Below, piece by piece: positions 27,534-38,432 of a stretch of 64,000 bases of DNA. Within the stretch, counting starts at the first letter, position 1, and every line of letters starts with the position of its first letter. The position numbers were made by a program, and so were the translations under genes. The stretch lies in NCBI GenBank assembly GCA_017409845.1, contig JAFQRY010000026.1:116055-180054 (forward strand). Direction: 5' to 3'. This DNA is from Clostridia bacterium (GTDB lineage: Bacteria; Bacillota; Clostridia; Oscillospirales; Acutalibacteraceae). The notes under the pieces were generated by a model. It was not told where the DNA came from. It worked only from the letters and a program-made list of their open reading frames with translations, and did not search any database.

Positions 27534-28229
27534 TTATACTTCTTTTTTGATTTTTTCAATTATTCTCTTTTCAAGCCTCGAGATATAGCTCTGAGATATT
27601 CCGAGAGCATCCGCAACTTCCTTCTGGGTGTATTCCCTGCCGCCGCCGATGCCGAAACGCATGGTCATTATCATGCGTTCTCTTTTGTTGAGTGAATTGA
27701 CGGCTTTATAAAGTCGGTTGCGTTCATCTTCAGCTTCAACATCTCTGTAAATATCATCAGGTTCGCTTCCGAGAACATCTGAAAGTAACAGCTCATTGCC
27801 GTCCCAGTCGGTATTGAGCGGCTCATAATATGAAACCTCTGCTTTTAACGGGTTTGTTTTTCTGAGATACATCAGAATTTCGTTTTCGATACACCGTGAT
27901 GCATAGGTGGCCAGTTTGATATTTTTTGCTGTTCTGAATGTGTTGACTGCTTTTATCAGTCCGAGCGTTCCGATTGAAATCAGATCTTCAACAGGAATTC
28001 CAGTGTTTTCAAATTTTTTTGCGATATAAACAACAAGCCTCAGATTATGAACAATAAGCTCTTCTCTTGCGTTCTTATCGCCTTTTTCCAGCTTATAAAG
28101 GCATTCGAGCTCGCGTTCATTTGTTAAAGGTGCGGGAAGTGTTTCGGGGCCGTTTATGTAATCTATTTCTATTTCGTAAAGCTTTGAAAATAGTCTGAGG
28201 AAAAAATTCTTAATAAGTTTTATTGTCAT
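27534..28229 (-). CDS. sigE: Sporulation sigma factor SigE (mother cell)
   Basis: 231 aa sigma-70. N-terminal pro-region ([15 protein letters not shown]) as in pro-SigE, then region 2 ([37 protein letters not shown]), region 3 remnant and region 4 ([33 protein letters not shown]). Directs early mother-cell gene expression after asymmetric division. Its inactive precursor is cleaved by SpoIIGA, whose gene overlaps this one by 4 nt upstream. The usual downstream sigG is absent; the gene instead converges with plsY. Confidence 0.97.
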
Positions 28230-29098
28230 ACTGTCATAATACCCCCTTTTAATTTAGTTTCAATTGTTTCGAGAAACGGAATTCCGAAGAGTGCGGAATA
28301 TTCTCCCGAAACAATTTTTTTGTTTGTGACAGCAATATAAATTTCATTGCTTTCATACCATTTTCCGTCAATGAATATTTCTGTTTTATCCGGCAGAAAG
28401 GCAGGAAGTGCTCCCGAATCGGCGATTGTTGAAAACGGTATAAGTCGGAAGTTTTTCATTCCGGTAATATCATTATCGCATATTTTACTTATAAATTCTT
28501 TTTCGGCGATAATCACCGGTTTTCCGGAAAAGCAATCGCAAAGTGTGTTACCGGAATCAAAAAGAGCTTTTCCTTCAGCGTATTTTCCGTTGTATGTAAT
28601 CTTAATTGAATATATGCTTTTCAAAGGTTTTTTGCTTTTTGTAAAACGCGATATGATACTCAGGGTGAAATAACAGATTATTGCACCGCCGGTCAGTGTG
28701 AAAATACTGATATCAAAATAAACAATGCCGTTTTTGTATATTGCAGAGTCGGGAAAAAGAGTTGTGCATAACGCAAACATAATTCCGGCAAATCCGAAAT
28801 TGACAAGAAAAAAAGCGGATATATCTTTGATAAAAGATTTTATGTTTCCGGATCCGAATGCAATAAAAACCATGAGAGAAAGCAGAATGATTTTTATCAT
28901 TATGTTGGCAATAAGCGGAATATTTTCGATGAATATCATCAATGAAAAGAGACTGCCGAGCAAAGACGAAGCGAGAAGACGAAGGGCTTTGAATGTGTGA
29001 CCGGTTATCATTGCACATGCTCTCAGAAGCAGATAATTCACAATCAGATTAATAATGATAAGAATGTCAGCGTATATTACGGTTTTCAGCTTTATCAC
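28226..29098 (-). CDS. spoIIGA: Sigma-E processing peptidase SpoIIGA
   Basis: About 290 aa. N-terminal half has five hydrophobic helices ([20 protein letters not shown] onward); the C-terminal half is an aspartic-protease-like domain with [20 protein letters not shown], where DSGN carries the catalytic Asp. Dimeric membrane protease that cleaves the SigE pro-region after a forespore signal. No ATG is available: GTG 29098 is assumed, but CTG 29089 follows GGGGTGAT and would align better with Bacillus SpoIIGA. Confidence 0.93.
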
Positions 29099-32865: not shown

Positions 32866-34470
32866 ATGGCAAAGAAATTAACTTCACTCATTCTTGCATT
32901 TGCGGTTATATTTACTGCGTTTGCAATCCCCGCATCCGCAGATGACGGCACATCAGATATCGAAAGAGGATTTTACCGTTTTGTTGACGGCCTTCTTGAT
33001 ACCATTGTTACCGGCATTGCATCTCTTATCGTTGAACCCAACAGCTTTGTTGCCAAGGATGAATATGAGTCAAAGAACTTCTATGAGGGTCTTTCACCTG
33101 AGGAATTCCTTGATGTTCCTGCTGAAAATGCACAGTGGAGCCTCGGCTATTCAAGTGCTTCAATTCTTACCGGCAAAGAGCTTGAAGAAGGCAATGACCA
33201 CTATGTCGGCGGCAGCCTTTCCGTTACTAAGAAGCTCGCAACAGCTCAGTACGATGATCAGAAAATCAGAACAGTTGCAATTTCTGACGGCAGAGGAATC
33301 AGCATTTTTGCTGCTGTTGATACCTTCGGACTTGCAAATAATGAAGTAAGAGTTATCAGAGAAAAGTTCCAGGCTTATGCAGATTCAAAGAATCTTGACA
33401 TTACAAGCATCAACATCTCTGCTCTTCATCAGCACAGCTGTGTAGATACTTTTGGTCTTAACGGCGATATTATCAATGCACTTTTCACTTCTTCCTTCAG
33501 AAACCTTTTCGGTATGGAGCTTCCCAGCGGTAAAAATAAGGGATATATGGAAAACCTCTATAAGGTATCTGTTCAGTCAATGATTGATGCTGTTGAAGAT
33601 ATGGAAGCAGGTAACCTTTATTACGGAAACGCAGACATGGCCGAGCTTATCCGTGACAAGCGTGATCCCAAAGTTTTCGACGGTAATCTTAACAGACTTC
33701 GTTTTGATCCCGCTGATGAAAATTCAGAGGAAACATGGATTGTCAATCTTCCGGTTCACTGTGTAGGTCACGGCGCATCGGGTACTGTTCTTACTGCTGA
33801 CTATCCCTATTACATGGAAAAATATATCAATGAAAATGCAGGCGCAAATTTCATGATGATTCTCGGTGCTGAGCTTGCGATTACTTCAGAATATCCCGTG
33901 GATATTTACAGAGATCCCGAAATCACTGCAGAATACGGCGACGGTTATGCAGGTCTTATCACATTCGGTCAGCTTCTCGGTGAAATTGCATGTTCGGTAT
34001 CAAACGAAGAGATGGTTGCTCCCATTCTCAATATCAGACATGCAGAAGTTTTTGTTCCTGTTGATAACAGCATCTTTAAGCTTGCTGCAAGAGGCGGACT
34101 TCTTACCAACACCGTTGTTAAAAACGGACTTGCATATGAAGCTGCATCCGAGCTCGGTTATGCGGAATTCGGTACCAATCTTGCTATTGCAATTATTCCC
34201 GGTGAGCTTGCAGCTGAAATCGCTTACGGCGGTGCAATCGGTGCTGAGGATTCATGGGACGGTACTGAATGGAATTACAGTGCATTTGTTGACTGCACAG
34301 ACAGAAAGCTTCTTGTGTTCGGAATTACAAATGATCAGATCGGTTACATGATGACAGACAATGACTGGCGTTCATATCTTACAGAAAACGAGGAAATCGT
34401 TTCAACCGGACCCAAAGCAGGTGCATACATTGCAGATGCATATCTTACTCTTTTTGATGAAATCAACTGA
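32866..34470 (+). CDS. Secreted neutral ceramidase-like hydrolase
   Basis: 534 aa. Signal peptide ending IPASADD. Similar to the N-terminal domain of neutral/alkaline non-lysosomal ceramidases: VRVIREKF region, ISALHQHSCVDTFG in place of the family's zinc-binding THTHSGP segment, then VHCVGHGASGTVLTADYPYY and MILGAELAI. Shorter than classical ceramidases (about 650-700 aa), with no clear C-terminal Ig domain. May hydrolyse an amide-linked lipid or act as a relaxed-specificity amidase; catalytic Ser not identified with certainty. Last gene of its operon. Confidence 0.72.
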   Translation: MAKKLTSLILAFAVIFTAFAIPASADDGTSDIERGFYRFVDGLLDTIVTGIASLIVEPNSFVAKDEYESKNFYEGLSPEEFLDVPAENAQWSLGYSSASILTGKELEEGNDHYVGGSLSVTKKLATAQYDDQKIRTVAISDGRGISIFAAVDTFGLANNEVRVIREKFQAYADSKNLDITSINISALHQHSCVDTFGLNGDIINALFTSSFRNLFGMELPSGKNKGYMENLYKVSVQSMIDAVEDMEAGNLYYGNADMAELIRDKRDPKVFDGNLNRLRFDPADENSEETWIVNLPVHCVGHGASGTVLTADYPYYMEKYINENAGANFMMILGAELAITSEYPVDIYRDPEITAEYGDGYAGLITFGQLLGEIACSVSNEEMVAPILNIRHAEVFVPVDNSIFKLAARGGLLTNTVVKNGLAYEAASELGYAEFGTNLAIAIIPGELAAEIAYGGAIGAEDSWDGTEWNYSAFVDCTDRKLLVFGITNDQIGYMMTDNDWRSYLTENEEIVSTGPKAGAYIADAYLTLFDEIN

Positions 34471-35774: not shown

Positions 35775-35787
35775 TAAAAATTTATAA

Positions 35788-35818
35788 GGACTGTCTCGTT
35801 TGAGGCAGTCTTTTTTAT
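35788..35818 (+). terminator. Intrinsic terminator
   Basis: GACTGTCTC (35789-35797) pairs with GAGGCAGTC (35802-35810) around GTTT, then TTTTTTATT. Confidence 0.88.
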
Positions 35819-35851: not shown

Positions 35852-35880
35852 TTGACAAATCACCAAATGTGGTATAAAAT
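35852..35880 (+). promoter_or_regulatory. Predicted promoter of the sigma-like membrane protein
   Basis: TTGACA at 35852-35857, 17-nt spacer, TAAAAT at 35875-35880. Confidence 0.65.
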
Positions 35881-35958
35881 CATTATAACTGTAATAATAG
35901 GTTAATATTGATTAAAAATATATTTATGATTGGAGTGGATTTCCAGGTGAGCGAAACT

Positions 35959-38103
35959 ATGGTTCAGTATGTTGCAGCCGCATGTAACGGTGATACCGAT
36001 GCAATGGCGAAGCTTTATTCAAAAACCCTTAAGGCATCATTCTTTCTTGCCGATACACTTACCGCCGGTGACGGTTCTGCCTCAGAGATAACAAAGAAAG
36101 CATATGCAAGAGCCTTCTGTACTATTGATAAACTCAAAAGACCCGAAGCCTTTGAAATCTGGATGAAGCAGAATGTTGCTCTTGTATACAAAGAAACACA
36201 GAAGTTTGTTTTTGGTGATGCAGAAGCAGGAGCTGAAGATGTTTCTTCCGATTTTCTTCCTGAAAGCGTTCTTTCAGACAGAGAGGCTTGTGTAAAAATT
36301 CTTGAAGCTGTTGCAGCTTTAAAGCCTGTTCTCAGAACTGCAATTGTTCTTCATTACAATAACGGAATGCCTGTTCCCGCACTTGCAAAGTTTCTTGGTG
36401 TTTCCGAGAGCACTGCAAATGCACTTCTCGGAAAGGCAAGAGCTGAAATTCTTGCTTTTTGCTCAATTTCGTCACGCGAATCCGAGCAGACGAAAGCACT
36501 TCCCGTTTTAACAAGAATCTTTCAGTTTAAGGCTGTAGATACAGCAATTGATAATACAGCCGTCAGAGATATTTTTATATATGCAATTGATGCATATGAG
36601 GCTTCAAAGCCTGCAGCACCGATTGTTCCTCCGGCAGAAGAGGTAACTGAAGCTCCTGCTGAGAACAGTGCTCCTTCTGTTAACGAAGAAGCAGCACCCG
36701 AAGCGGCTGAAGAAACAGCTGAAGCTTCGACTGAGCCTTCAAATATTATTTCTTTCAAGCAGAAAATCAATGAAATTCTTGATAACGGAAGTGCTTCCGA
36801 AGAAAAAGAGTTTTCCGTTGAAACAGAGACTGAAAAAGAAGAAGAAATTGATATCCCGACTTTTACCGTTTCGGATACACCTTCTTCTGTTTCCGATGAA
36901 ACCCTTAACAACTTTGCTCCTACTGCACCCGTGATGACTGAATCACCGAAGCAGCCCGAAAAGAAGTCAAAGCCCGCATTCAAAATGCCGAATATCAAGG
37001 CAAATCCTAAAATTCTCGGTATTGCCGGTGCTCTTCTTGTTGTTCTTATCATTGTTATTGCAGTTGCTGCAGGCAGAGGTGATGAACCCGACGTAAGCAC
37101 TCCCGATGCAGGTAATGTTGCACAGACAACTCAGGCTCAGGCAGTCAATGCCGAAGGATATAAGTGGGTTGAAGGCGGATTTTCGGAATGTGAAGAAGTA
37201 GTTTATCTTGATGAAAACTGCTGCTATTTCAAATCAAAGACAACCGGAAAATACGGACTTATGGATTATCAGGGTAATGTTATCCTTCAGCCCTATTATG
37301 ATGGCTTTGACCGCTGCAGCAGCGGCAGAGATTATTCTGAAAGAGACAGCTATCACAGTCTTGTAAAATACGGCAACGAATCATACGAGTTTACTATTGA
37401 AAACGGTGTAGTTACTCTTTCACAAACTCCTCATTCGGCTCATTCAATTGATACGGATTCCATGGGTGATGTATCATATGATGAACGCGACCGTTATTTT
37501 GAAGGATATGCGGCTGCAAGAAAAGATGATAAGTGGGGCTATGTTAGACAGGAAGATGACAAGAGAGTTATCAAGTATGAATATGAAGCGGTAAATGAGC
37601 TTCAGCTTGGTGCAGCTGCAGCATGTGATTTCTGTCGCCCCGTTACAAACGGACTCATTGCTGTCAAGAAAGACGGTAAGATGGGTATCATCAACTTAAA
37701 AAATAAAGAAGTTGTTCCTTTTAATTATGATAATATCATGCCCGGTAAAGACGGCGTGTTTATTGCAAGCAAGGATGGCGTGATGGGTGTTATTCTTGTA
37801 GGTGATGCAGTCGCAAGTTTCAAGGGTGTAAATATCAATGTTATTGAGCAGGAATCAACAGATATTGCTGAAAATCCGGATGAAGCAATTCTCGGAAAAT
37901 ACAAGGTAACATCTGATGACGGTGCAAATATCAGAGATGCTGCAAATGCAAATGCTAACCTTGTCGGTGAACTTGATTCCGGCGATGTTGTTATCGGATA
38001 TTCGGTAAAAACCGCCAAAAACGGCAAAGAATGGCTCGGAATTAAGCACGAAGGTAAAATTGCCTGGGTTTCAATGCTCAATCTTGAACTTGTTGAAGAA
38101 TAA
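35959..38103 (+). CDS. ECF-sigma-like / transmembrane / WG-repeat / SH3b fusion protein
   Basis: 714 aa from ATG 35959, which has AGGTGA 8 nt upstream; GTG 35947 and TTG 35908 are alternatives. Residues 1-75 resemble sigma region 2 (ACNGDTDAMAKLYSKTLK, AYARAFCTIDKL, FEIWMKQNV). Residues about 110-165 resemble region 4 with its helix-turn-helix (LKPVLRTAIVLHYNNGMPVP, LGVSESTANALLGKARAEI). An Ala/Glu/Pro-rich linker follows. A transmembrane helix lies at about 351-373 (ILGIAGALLVVLIIVIAVAA). Outside are three or four WG-type repeats (GKYGLMDYQGNVILQPYYDG, DKWGYVRQ, GKMGIINLKN) and a C-terminal SH3b domain (GANIRDAANANANLVGEL). It could couple an outside wall signal to transcription. Monocistronic, own promoter. 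Confidence 0.8.
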   Translation: MVQYVAAACNGDTDAMAKLYSKTLKASFFLADTLTAGDGSASEITKKAYARAFCTIDKLKRPEAFEIWMKQNVALVYKETQKFVFGDAEAGAEDVSSDFLPESVLSDREACVKILEAVAALKPVLRTAIVLHYNNGMPVPALAKFLGVSESTANALLGKARAEILAFCSISSRESEQTKALPVLTRIFQFKAVDTAIDNTAVRDIFIYAIDAYEASKPAAPIVPPAEEVTEAPAENSAPSVNEEAAPEAAEETAEASTEPSNIISFKQKINEILDNGSASEEKEFSVETETEKEEEIDIPTFTVSDTPSSVSDETLNNFAPTAPVMTESPKQPEKKSKPAFKMPNIKANPKILGIAGALLVVLIIVIAVAAGRGDEPDVSTPDAGNVAQTTQAQAVNAEGYKWVEGGFSECEEVVYLDENCCYFKSKTTGKYGLMDYQGNVILQPYYDGFDRCSSGRDYSERDSYHSLVKYGNESYEFTIENGVVTLSQTPHSAHSIDTDSMGDVSYDERDRYFEGYAAARKDDKWGYVRQEDDKRVIKYEYEAVNELQLGAAAACDFCRPVTNGLIAVKKDGKMGIINLKNKEVVPFNYDNIMPGKDGVFIASKDGVMGVILVGDAVASFKGVNINVIEQESTDIAENPDEAILGKYKVTSDDGANIRDAANANANLVGELDSGDVVIGYSVKTAKNGKEWLGIKHEGKIAWVSMLNLELVEE

Positions 38104-38185: not shown

Positions 38186-38432
38186 TAAATATTTGAAGCC
38201 GTGACGGGGAAGAATTCTTCGCTTGCTTTACAGAGAGAAAACCGAGCTGCTGAAACGGTTTTCAGGCAAAAAAGCGGATTAAGGCCGCCCCTGAGCTCTG
38301 CCGTGATGAACGGCGGCGTTGCCTGCGTTAAAGGTTTTGAGTGGTGCGTTGCACAATTTGGGTGGTACCGCGGTTTTGAGCCGTCCCATTACCGAATTGT
38401 TGAATTGCACCTTTTTTTATTTTTTTGTAAAT
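38186..38432 (+). promoter_or_regulatory. T-box riboswitch of alaS
   Basis: About 250-nt leader between promoter and gene. It contains the stem I AGAGAG element (ACAGAGAGAAAACCG followed by GCTGCTGAAACGG), the T-box antiterminator sequence GGGTGGTACCGCGG at 38360-38373, and a terminator arm, CCGAATTGTTGAATTGCACC, followed by a long T-run at about 38411-38428. Uncharged tRNA-Ala is expected to pair with the specifier loop and the T-box, favouring readthrough. The exact specifier codon was not fixed by eye. The leader has an open frame in phase with alaS but should not be translated. Confidence 0.93.

Follow-up and report, generated by a model that had tools for sequence, protein, structure and literature searches.

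A Membrane Protein of Gut Clostridia With a Conserved but Degenerate Sigma Domain: A Possible Pseudo-Sigma Receptor

Main Finding

In the DNA of a Clostridia bacterium, which is a gut bacterium, we found a membrane protein whose inner part has the fold of an ECF sigma factor and is very probably no longer an active sigma; we refer to it as a pseudo-sigma protein. The stretch analyzed, hereafter the window, comprises 64,000 nt (assembly GCA_017409845.1, contig JAFQRY010000026.1, positions 116,055 to 180,054). The explanation that we favor, evenly poised between right and wrong when taken as a whole, is that of a membrane receptor carrying a retired ECF sigma inside the cell. Our computations support three of its steps: the ancestor of the protein was a sigma factor anchored in the membrane and bearing the same WG ectodomain; the sigma2-sigma4 fold has been retained under strong selection; and residues conserved in the relatives have been lost at the sites of contact with core RNA polymerase and promoter DNA. 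Such a protein would no longer start transcription itself. Its WG/SH3b part would lie outside, in the wall, and probably binds the cell wall, and the tethered sigma-like domain may, by analogy with PhyR, bind a protein that recognizes sigmas. The likeliest partner would be an anti-sigma factor, as PhyR binds NepR, and an outside signal would alter the amount of free partner.

Domain Organization

In this protein, an ECF-type fold of sigma2 and sigma4 domains is joined through a transmembrane helix to an outside region of WG repeats and an SH3b fold (Table 1). This order of domains (sigma regions 2 and 4, linker, one transmembrane helix, WG, SH3b) had been read from the sequence in a first-pass annotation, and Pfam, fold matches and the structural model all agree with it. 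The membrane topology proposed there likewise fits the predicted features; the transmembrane helix is flanked by a Lys-rich segment on its N-terminal side and by an acidic one on its C-terminal side. In the two helices beyond sigma4, P186 and F210 are invariant in the 36 rows of our alignment. Within the ectodomain (residues 405-630), C457, C563, R516, D515, H470, and D561 are invariant in 36 rows, including that of L144, an intact relative described below. The two cysteines and the polar residues suggest a possible ligand pocket or disulphide.

Table 1. Features of the pseudo-sigma gene and its upstream region (window positions).
Feature	Position	Strand	Basis
Terminator-like hairpin (stem of 12 pairs with a T run behind it) following the FtsW/RodA/SpoVE-type gene upstream	35786..35813	+	Consensus scan
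SigmaA-type promoter, TTGACA-17-TAAAAT	35852..35880	+	Consensus scan
Pseudo-sigma membrane protein, 718 aa, start GTG at 35947	35947..38103	+	
Sigma2-like domain, residues 1-87	35947..36207	+	Fold match to SigW, E. coli sigmaE, others
Lys50-Lys51, replacing the Gln-Glu core-binding pair of sigma region 2.2	36094..36099	+	
Sigma4-like domain, residues 107-175	36265..36471	+	Pfam Sigma70_r4_2; fold match
Recognition helix, Asn158 and Leu160 replacing Lys and Arg, net charge 0	36403..36447	+	
Two conserved helices beyond sigma4, residues 187-198 and 203-220	36505..36606	+	pLDDT >90
Linker, variable, mostly disordered, residues 221-353	36607..37005	+	pLDDT <50 over most
Single predicted transmembrane helix, residues 354-374	37006..37068	+	Hydropathy 3.2; helix in model
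WG-repeat ectodomain, propeller-like, residues 405-630	37159..37836	+	
SH3b domain, residues 647-716	37885..38094	+	

Loss of Core-Binding and Promoter-Reading Residues

We compared 41 distinct members of the pseudo-sigma family with 63 other, non-pseudo sigma rows. Asp403, Gln406, and Glu407 are given in E. coli sigma70 numbering, and the last two we take to be the core-binding pair of region 2.2. At the Gln406 equivalent, the family has K in 37 members, S in 2, R in 1, and Q in 1; at the Glu407 equivalent it has K in 31, N in 7, and Q in 3, with no acidic residue in any of the 41. The corresponding figures for the 63 other sigma rows are 58 with Q and 54 with an acid. Asp403 is still represented by an acidic residue in 40 of the 41 members, and the full set of region 2.2 core-binding residues (D..Q-E/D) is not found in the family.

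The positions that read the promoter have changed as well. Equivalents of N79 (region 2.4), K158, and R160 are N, K, and R in 52, 54, and 57 of the 63 non-pseudo rows, respectively, whereas K158 and R160, which lie in the -35 recognition helix, have no equivalent in any of the 41 members. The net charge of this helix ranges from -2 to +1 in the family vs. +1 to +6 in the 63 rows, and a positively charged recognition helix is not a feature of the family. The helix-turn-helix (HTH) scaffold of the sigma4-like domain is kept in 36 of 36 rows.

A narrower comparison used 54 relatives, a mix of membrane-fused and soluble sigmas, namely the 63 rows minus nine divergent ones (mostly soluble sigmas), with pseudo-sigma rows and L205_125 also left out. 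From these relatives to the family, Q50 falls from 98% to 2% (the 98% being inflated by the exclusion, compared with 58/63, as four of the nine dropped rows lack Gln406), N79 from 85% to 2%, K158 from 89% to 0, and R160 from 93% to 0; the remaining positions conserved and then lost are I76, Q129, and a gap artefact at position 1. No single residue decides the matter, because 9 of the 63 other sigma rows have a non-acidic residue at position 407, and 5 lack Gln406 although their recognition helix carries +1 to +6. What distinguishes the family is these changes taken together. A literature search on changes in sigma core-binding residues returned nothing relevant.

Selection on the Segments

We estimated dN/dS (Nei-Gojobori) for six pairs over seven segments, with some synonymous values saturated. 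The sigma2 domain, at 0.034-0.083, was the lowest of the seven segments in four of the six pairs, tied with SH3b in one, and was slightly above WG in one. Values for sigma4 were 0.082-0.238 in the six pairs, and the WG part, at 0.036-0.103, is under the same constraint as the sigma part. Where computable, the linker gave 0.10-0.43 and the transmembrane helix 0.19-0.55, which places the latter among the segments under least constraint. In the 41 members, the residues that took the place of the lost ones are conserved in their turn (K50 90%, N158 85%, C58 98%), and no stop codon lies inside the sigma domain among the 44 matches listed. The loss of sigma residues together with this strict conservation suggests that the domain has turned into something else.

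Intact Relatives and Evolutionary Origin

Five sigma-fused proteins encoded in the source genome retain both Gln406 and a positively charged recognition helix; in each of them a single membrane segment is predicted, of only moderate hydropathy (1.63-1.86). The genome also encodes a second membrane pseudo-sigma, of 931 aa, on contig 5 (L082:179-2974; membrane segment 2.98), in which the region 2.2 residues and the helix charge are both lost; its ectodomain gave no Pfam hit at E up to 0.01.

Outside the genus, a protein from a Clostridiaceae metagenome bin (L144) combines a sigma part, a transmembrane segment, and a WG ectodomain homologous to that of the pseudo-sigma protein (43% identical over 232 residues); no SH3_3 hit was obtained in it. 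Its sigma domains are intact (Sigma70_r2 2e-11, Sigma70_r4_2 1.5e-11). In a tree, L144, the pseudo-sigma family, and two other pseudo-sigmas were grouped at 99/98; when the trait columns were removed, this group was weaker (93/65) and own_C5 fell outside it. Both trees were computed without L205_125, a chance ORF, and the one free of trait columns also without ten more divergent rows. Because L144 has the same plan, keeps intact sigma residues and groups with the family, the loss of these residues in the pseudo-sigma family is most likely a derived state.

Conversion of a sigma into a pseudo-sigma appears to have taken place more than once, separately in other sigma-fused membrane proteins of the bacterial family. 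The full tree needs four state changes, and the tree without trait columns needs five, three of them forced. With the trait columns removed, the AU test rejected a single shared origin of all pseudo-sigmas (p 0.005); in this test the group was named after the data had been seen, and several pseudo-sigma rows sit on long branches. The number of separate losses is unsure on these two grounds and because own_C5 moved when the trait columns were removed.

The other pseudo-sigmas differ in their outside parts. Two pseudo-sigmas that are related to each other, L208:5949-8615 and L209:6789-9209, have long linkers of Gln/Pro-rich repeats; both also have BspA-type repeats, which in L209 lie outside. 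Near the contig 5 pseudo-sigma lies a gene at L082:4792-6063, and a similar gene (by eye) is also close in L208 and L209. The ectodomain of the anti-sigma RsiV consists of PdaC and DUF3298, and L206:6214-8313 has DUF3298 and a below-cut-off PdaC match outside. L206 therefore carries a degenerate sigma domain where an RsiV-like ectodomain would predict an anti-sigma domain. This likeness to RsiV belongs to L206, another pseudo-sigma, whereas the protein described here has WG and SH3b instead.

Distribution, Promoter, and Gene Neighborhood

With a model of the N-terminal part, the gene was found in 42 of 45 same-genus genomes, including all 15 of good quality. Each of the 42 has one strong copy (256-362 bits), and two have an additional weaker match (108-113 bits). 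In a sample of 200 genomes of the bacterial family, only the three that belong to the same genus exceeded 300 bits, and the matches outside the genus were other sigma proteins, many of them long. Searches for plasmid-borne homologs gave only distant matches, annotated as sigma factors (four records). Among the named relatives, which are Clostridia assembled from metagenomes, many come from the gut of a ruminant or another herbivore. In one metagenome contig (L112:5980-8404), the pseudo-sigma gene is broken into two frames, through either an assembly error or a real change.

The promoter upstream of the gene is kept in 39 of 41 loci (at least 10 of 12 matches) vs. 4.7 expected from shuffles. 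Given this conserved motif and the preceding hairpin, which follows a gene with the Pfam domain FTSW_RODA_SPOVE, the pseudo-sigma gene has a promoter of its own, as the first-pass annotation had held, and this promoter is of the sigmaA type. The annotation had also seen no partner gene, and across the family loci we too found no conserved ECF, anti-sigma or other partner gene beside the pseudo-sigma gene.

The next conserved gene is alaS in all 35 loci with downstream sequence (identified by NCBIfam on the source contig); it follows directly in 32, and in the other 3 there is an intervening ORF or a broken frame. In the window, a T-box leader (RF00230, 93.1 bits) lies at 38192-38391, directly upstream of alaS. 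On the other side, 8 of the 42 loci have a sigE homolog immediately ahead of the pseudo-sigma gene and a spoIIGA homolog ahead of sigE; in the L114 locus, sigE is in two pieces. In the window, sigE and spoIIGA are found at 27534-29098 on the minus strand, ~7 kb upstream of the pseudo-sigma gene; this is a local inversion relative to the eight loci where they directly precede it on the same strand. Positions 32866-34470 encode a protein of 534 aa that begins like a signal peptide and gave no Pfam hit; in several relatives it belongs to the gene row upstream of the pseudo-sigma gene.

Predicted Structure and Candidate Partners

In the AlphaFold model the sigma fold is intact (pTM 0.87). Its sigma2-sigma4 arrangement superposes on anti-sigma-bound SigW with an rmsd of 3.4 A over 149 residues, on SigG1 with its fused extension at 2.6 A over 135 residues, and on PhyR-NepR at 4.1 A over 126 residues; it differs by 21-27 A from the open, RNAP-bound ECF sigmas where both domains aligned. 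The fit to two further sigmas bound to an anti-sigma was poor (SigK 8.5 A, BldN 12.2 A). The predicted arrangement is closed, as in anti-sigma-bound SigW, SigG1, and PhyR-NepR, though it gives no clean signal, and such compactness may be a habit of AlphaFold for isolated ECF sigmas.

Searches of the genome with the anti-sigma profiles zf-HC2 and RsgI_N gave no hit. For six of the eight soluble ECF genes that we inspected, the next gene encodes a protein with one hydrophobic stretch (by eye), a candidate anti-sigma; none of these candidates is linked to the pseudo-sigma gene.

Comparison With Known Systems

PhyR has a sigma fold without core and promoter contacts and serves as a decoy for the anti-sigma NepR, according to the accessible text of two sources (PMC8103513; PMC8999054). 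It is an alphaproteobacterial response regulator, an anti-anti-sigma that generally shares one locus with nepR and ecfG, in the accessible text of the first (PMC8103513). The pseudo-sigma protein resembles it in having an ECF fold with degenerate core- and DNA-contacting regions. It differs in being tethered to the membrane with a wall-facing ectodomain, in occurring in Clostridia, and in having no anti-sigma gene seen beside it. There is also no receiver domain among its Pfam hits and no adjoining nepR or ecfG; its neighbors are alaS and, in 8 of 42 loci, sigE.

Sigma factors fused to membrane parts have been described as ECF48, ECF52, ECF53, and IutY (ECF243), which like our protein carry the sigma domain, a transmembrane helix, and an outside part in one chain (PMC8999054, accessible text). 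They are described as sigmas activated by proteolysis, or expected to be so, whereas the pseudo-sigma family has lost the sigma residues. For ECF262, exemplified by a protein from Ruminococcus albus, the accessible text of the same source notes only that the group has a regulatory extension (PMC8999054); that the intact relatives belong to ECF262 is a lead. The SigW/RsiW pair (PDB 5wuq) differs in being split over two proteins, a free-standing sigma and the anti-sigma that holds it.

Alternative Explanations

That the inner domain is a protein-binding mimic of a sigma is a tentative proposal, plausible rather than probable, drawn by analogy with PhyR. Its main rival, which we hold to be unlikely, is a membrane-anchored DNA-binding regulator, in which the sigma4-like HTH would bind an operator without core polymerase under the control of the ectodomain. 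Since the HTH scaffold is kept in every row, the domain may bind DNA to some extent; it is also under strong conservation, and one-protein membrane regulators are known in other families. Set against this, none of the 41 members has the recognition-helix Lys and Arg and the helix charge is low, which makes DNA binding in the manner of a sigma doubtful and weakens such a role; sigma2, needless for a regulator of this kind, is among the most constrained segments; and a signal could hardly pass directly through so long a disordered linker. The fallback offered by the first-pass annotation, a sigma-derived DNA-binding membrane regulator, comes closer to our results than its primary reading, and is weakened by the same missing Lys and Arg.

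That primary reading, an active one-protein sensor and sigma factor perhaps freed by intramembrane cleavage, would require unusual core contacts, and we consider it improbable. The sigma fold is complete, intact sigmas with a predicted transmembrane segment exist as relatives in the same genome and across the order, and long sigma-bearing frames occur across the class too; IutY and ECF52 offer precedents as fused membrane sigmas in the accessible text of PMC8999054. The reading was rejected on the residues of the 41 members, in which Q-E has mostly become K-K and the recognition Lys and Arg mostly Asn and Leu: throughout the family, the residues that contact core and those that read the promoter have gone. 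The annotation had itself named loss of the core-binding residues across homologs as its ground for refutation, and such a loss is what the 41 members show. As the genome keeps many sigmas with normal residues, the polymerase can hardly have co-adapted to the K-K pair, and the transmembrane helix is among the least constrained segments. What stands of the earlier interpretation is the domain assignment, the promoter and the absence of a partner gene; its active sigma factor does not.

Decay of a sigma domain that persists only because the ectodomain attached to it is useful, which would account for the lost functional residues and for the long branches of some other pseudo-sigma rows, is already largely refuted and highly improbable, as the low dN/dS of both sigma domains rejects decay, the 44 matches listed have no stop inside the domain, and the replacements K50 and N158 are conserved.

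Significance

Our literature search, which covered few subscription papers, found no description of membrane pseudo-sigmas or of such transmembrane signaling. Fused membrane sigmas and the PhyR type of mimic are each known, and a wall-facing receptor with a dead, conserved sigma would join both. L144, intact and with the same ectodomain, forms with the pseudo-sigma protein a natural before/after pair, so that the fate of a former sigma domain becomes directly testable. These proteins are also a warning for annotation, as profile hits alone would call them sigma factors.

It is conceivable, if rather speculative, that membrane sigmas of the Clostridia repeatedly became transmembrane pseudo-sigma receptors, in which a dead sigma titrates sigma-binding proteins behind varied sensors. 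With the same reserve, these sensors might include WG with SH3b, BspA repeats, PdaC/DUF3298, and others, in a membrane counterpart of PhyR. If true, such repeated conversion would represent a mode of signaling across the membrane of which our literature search found no description.
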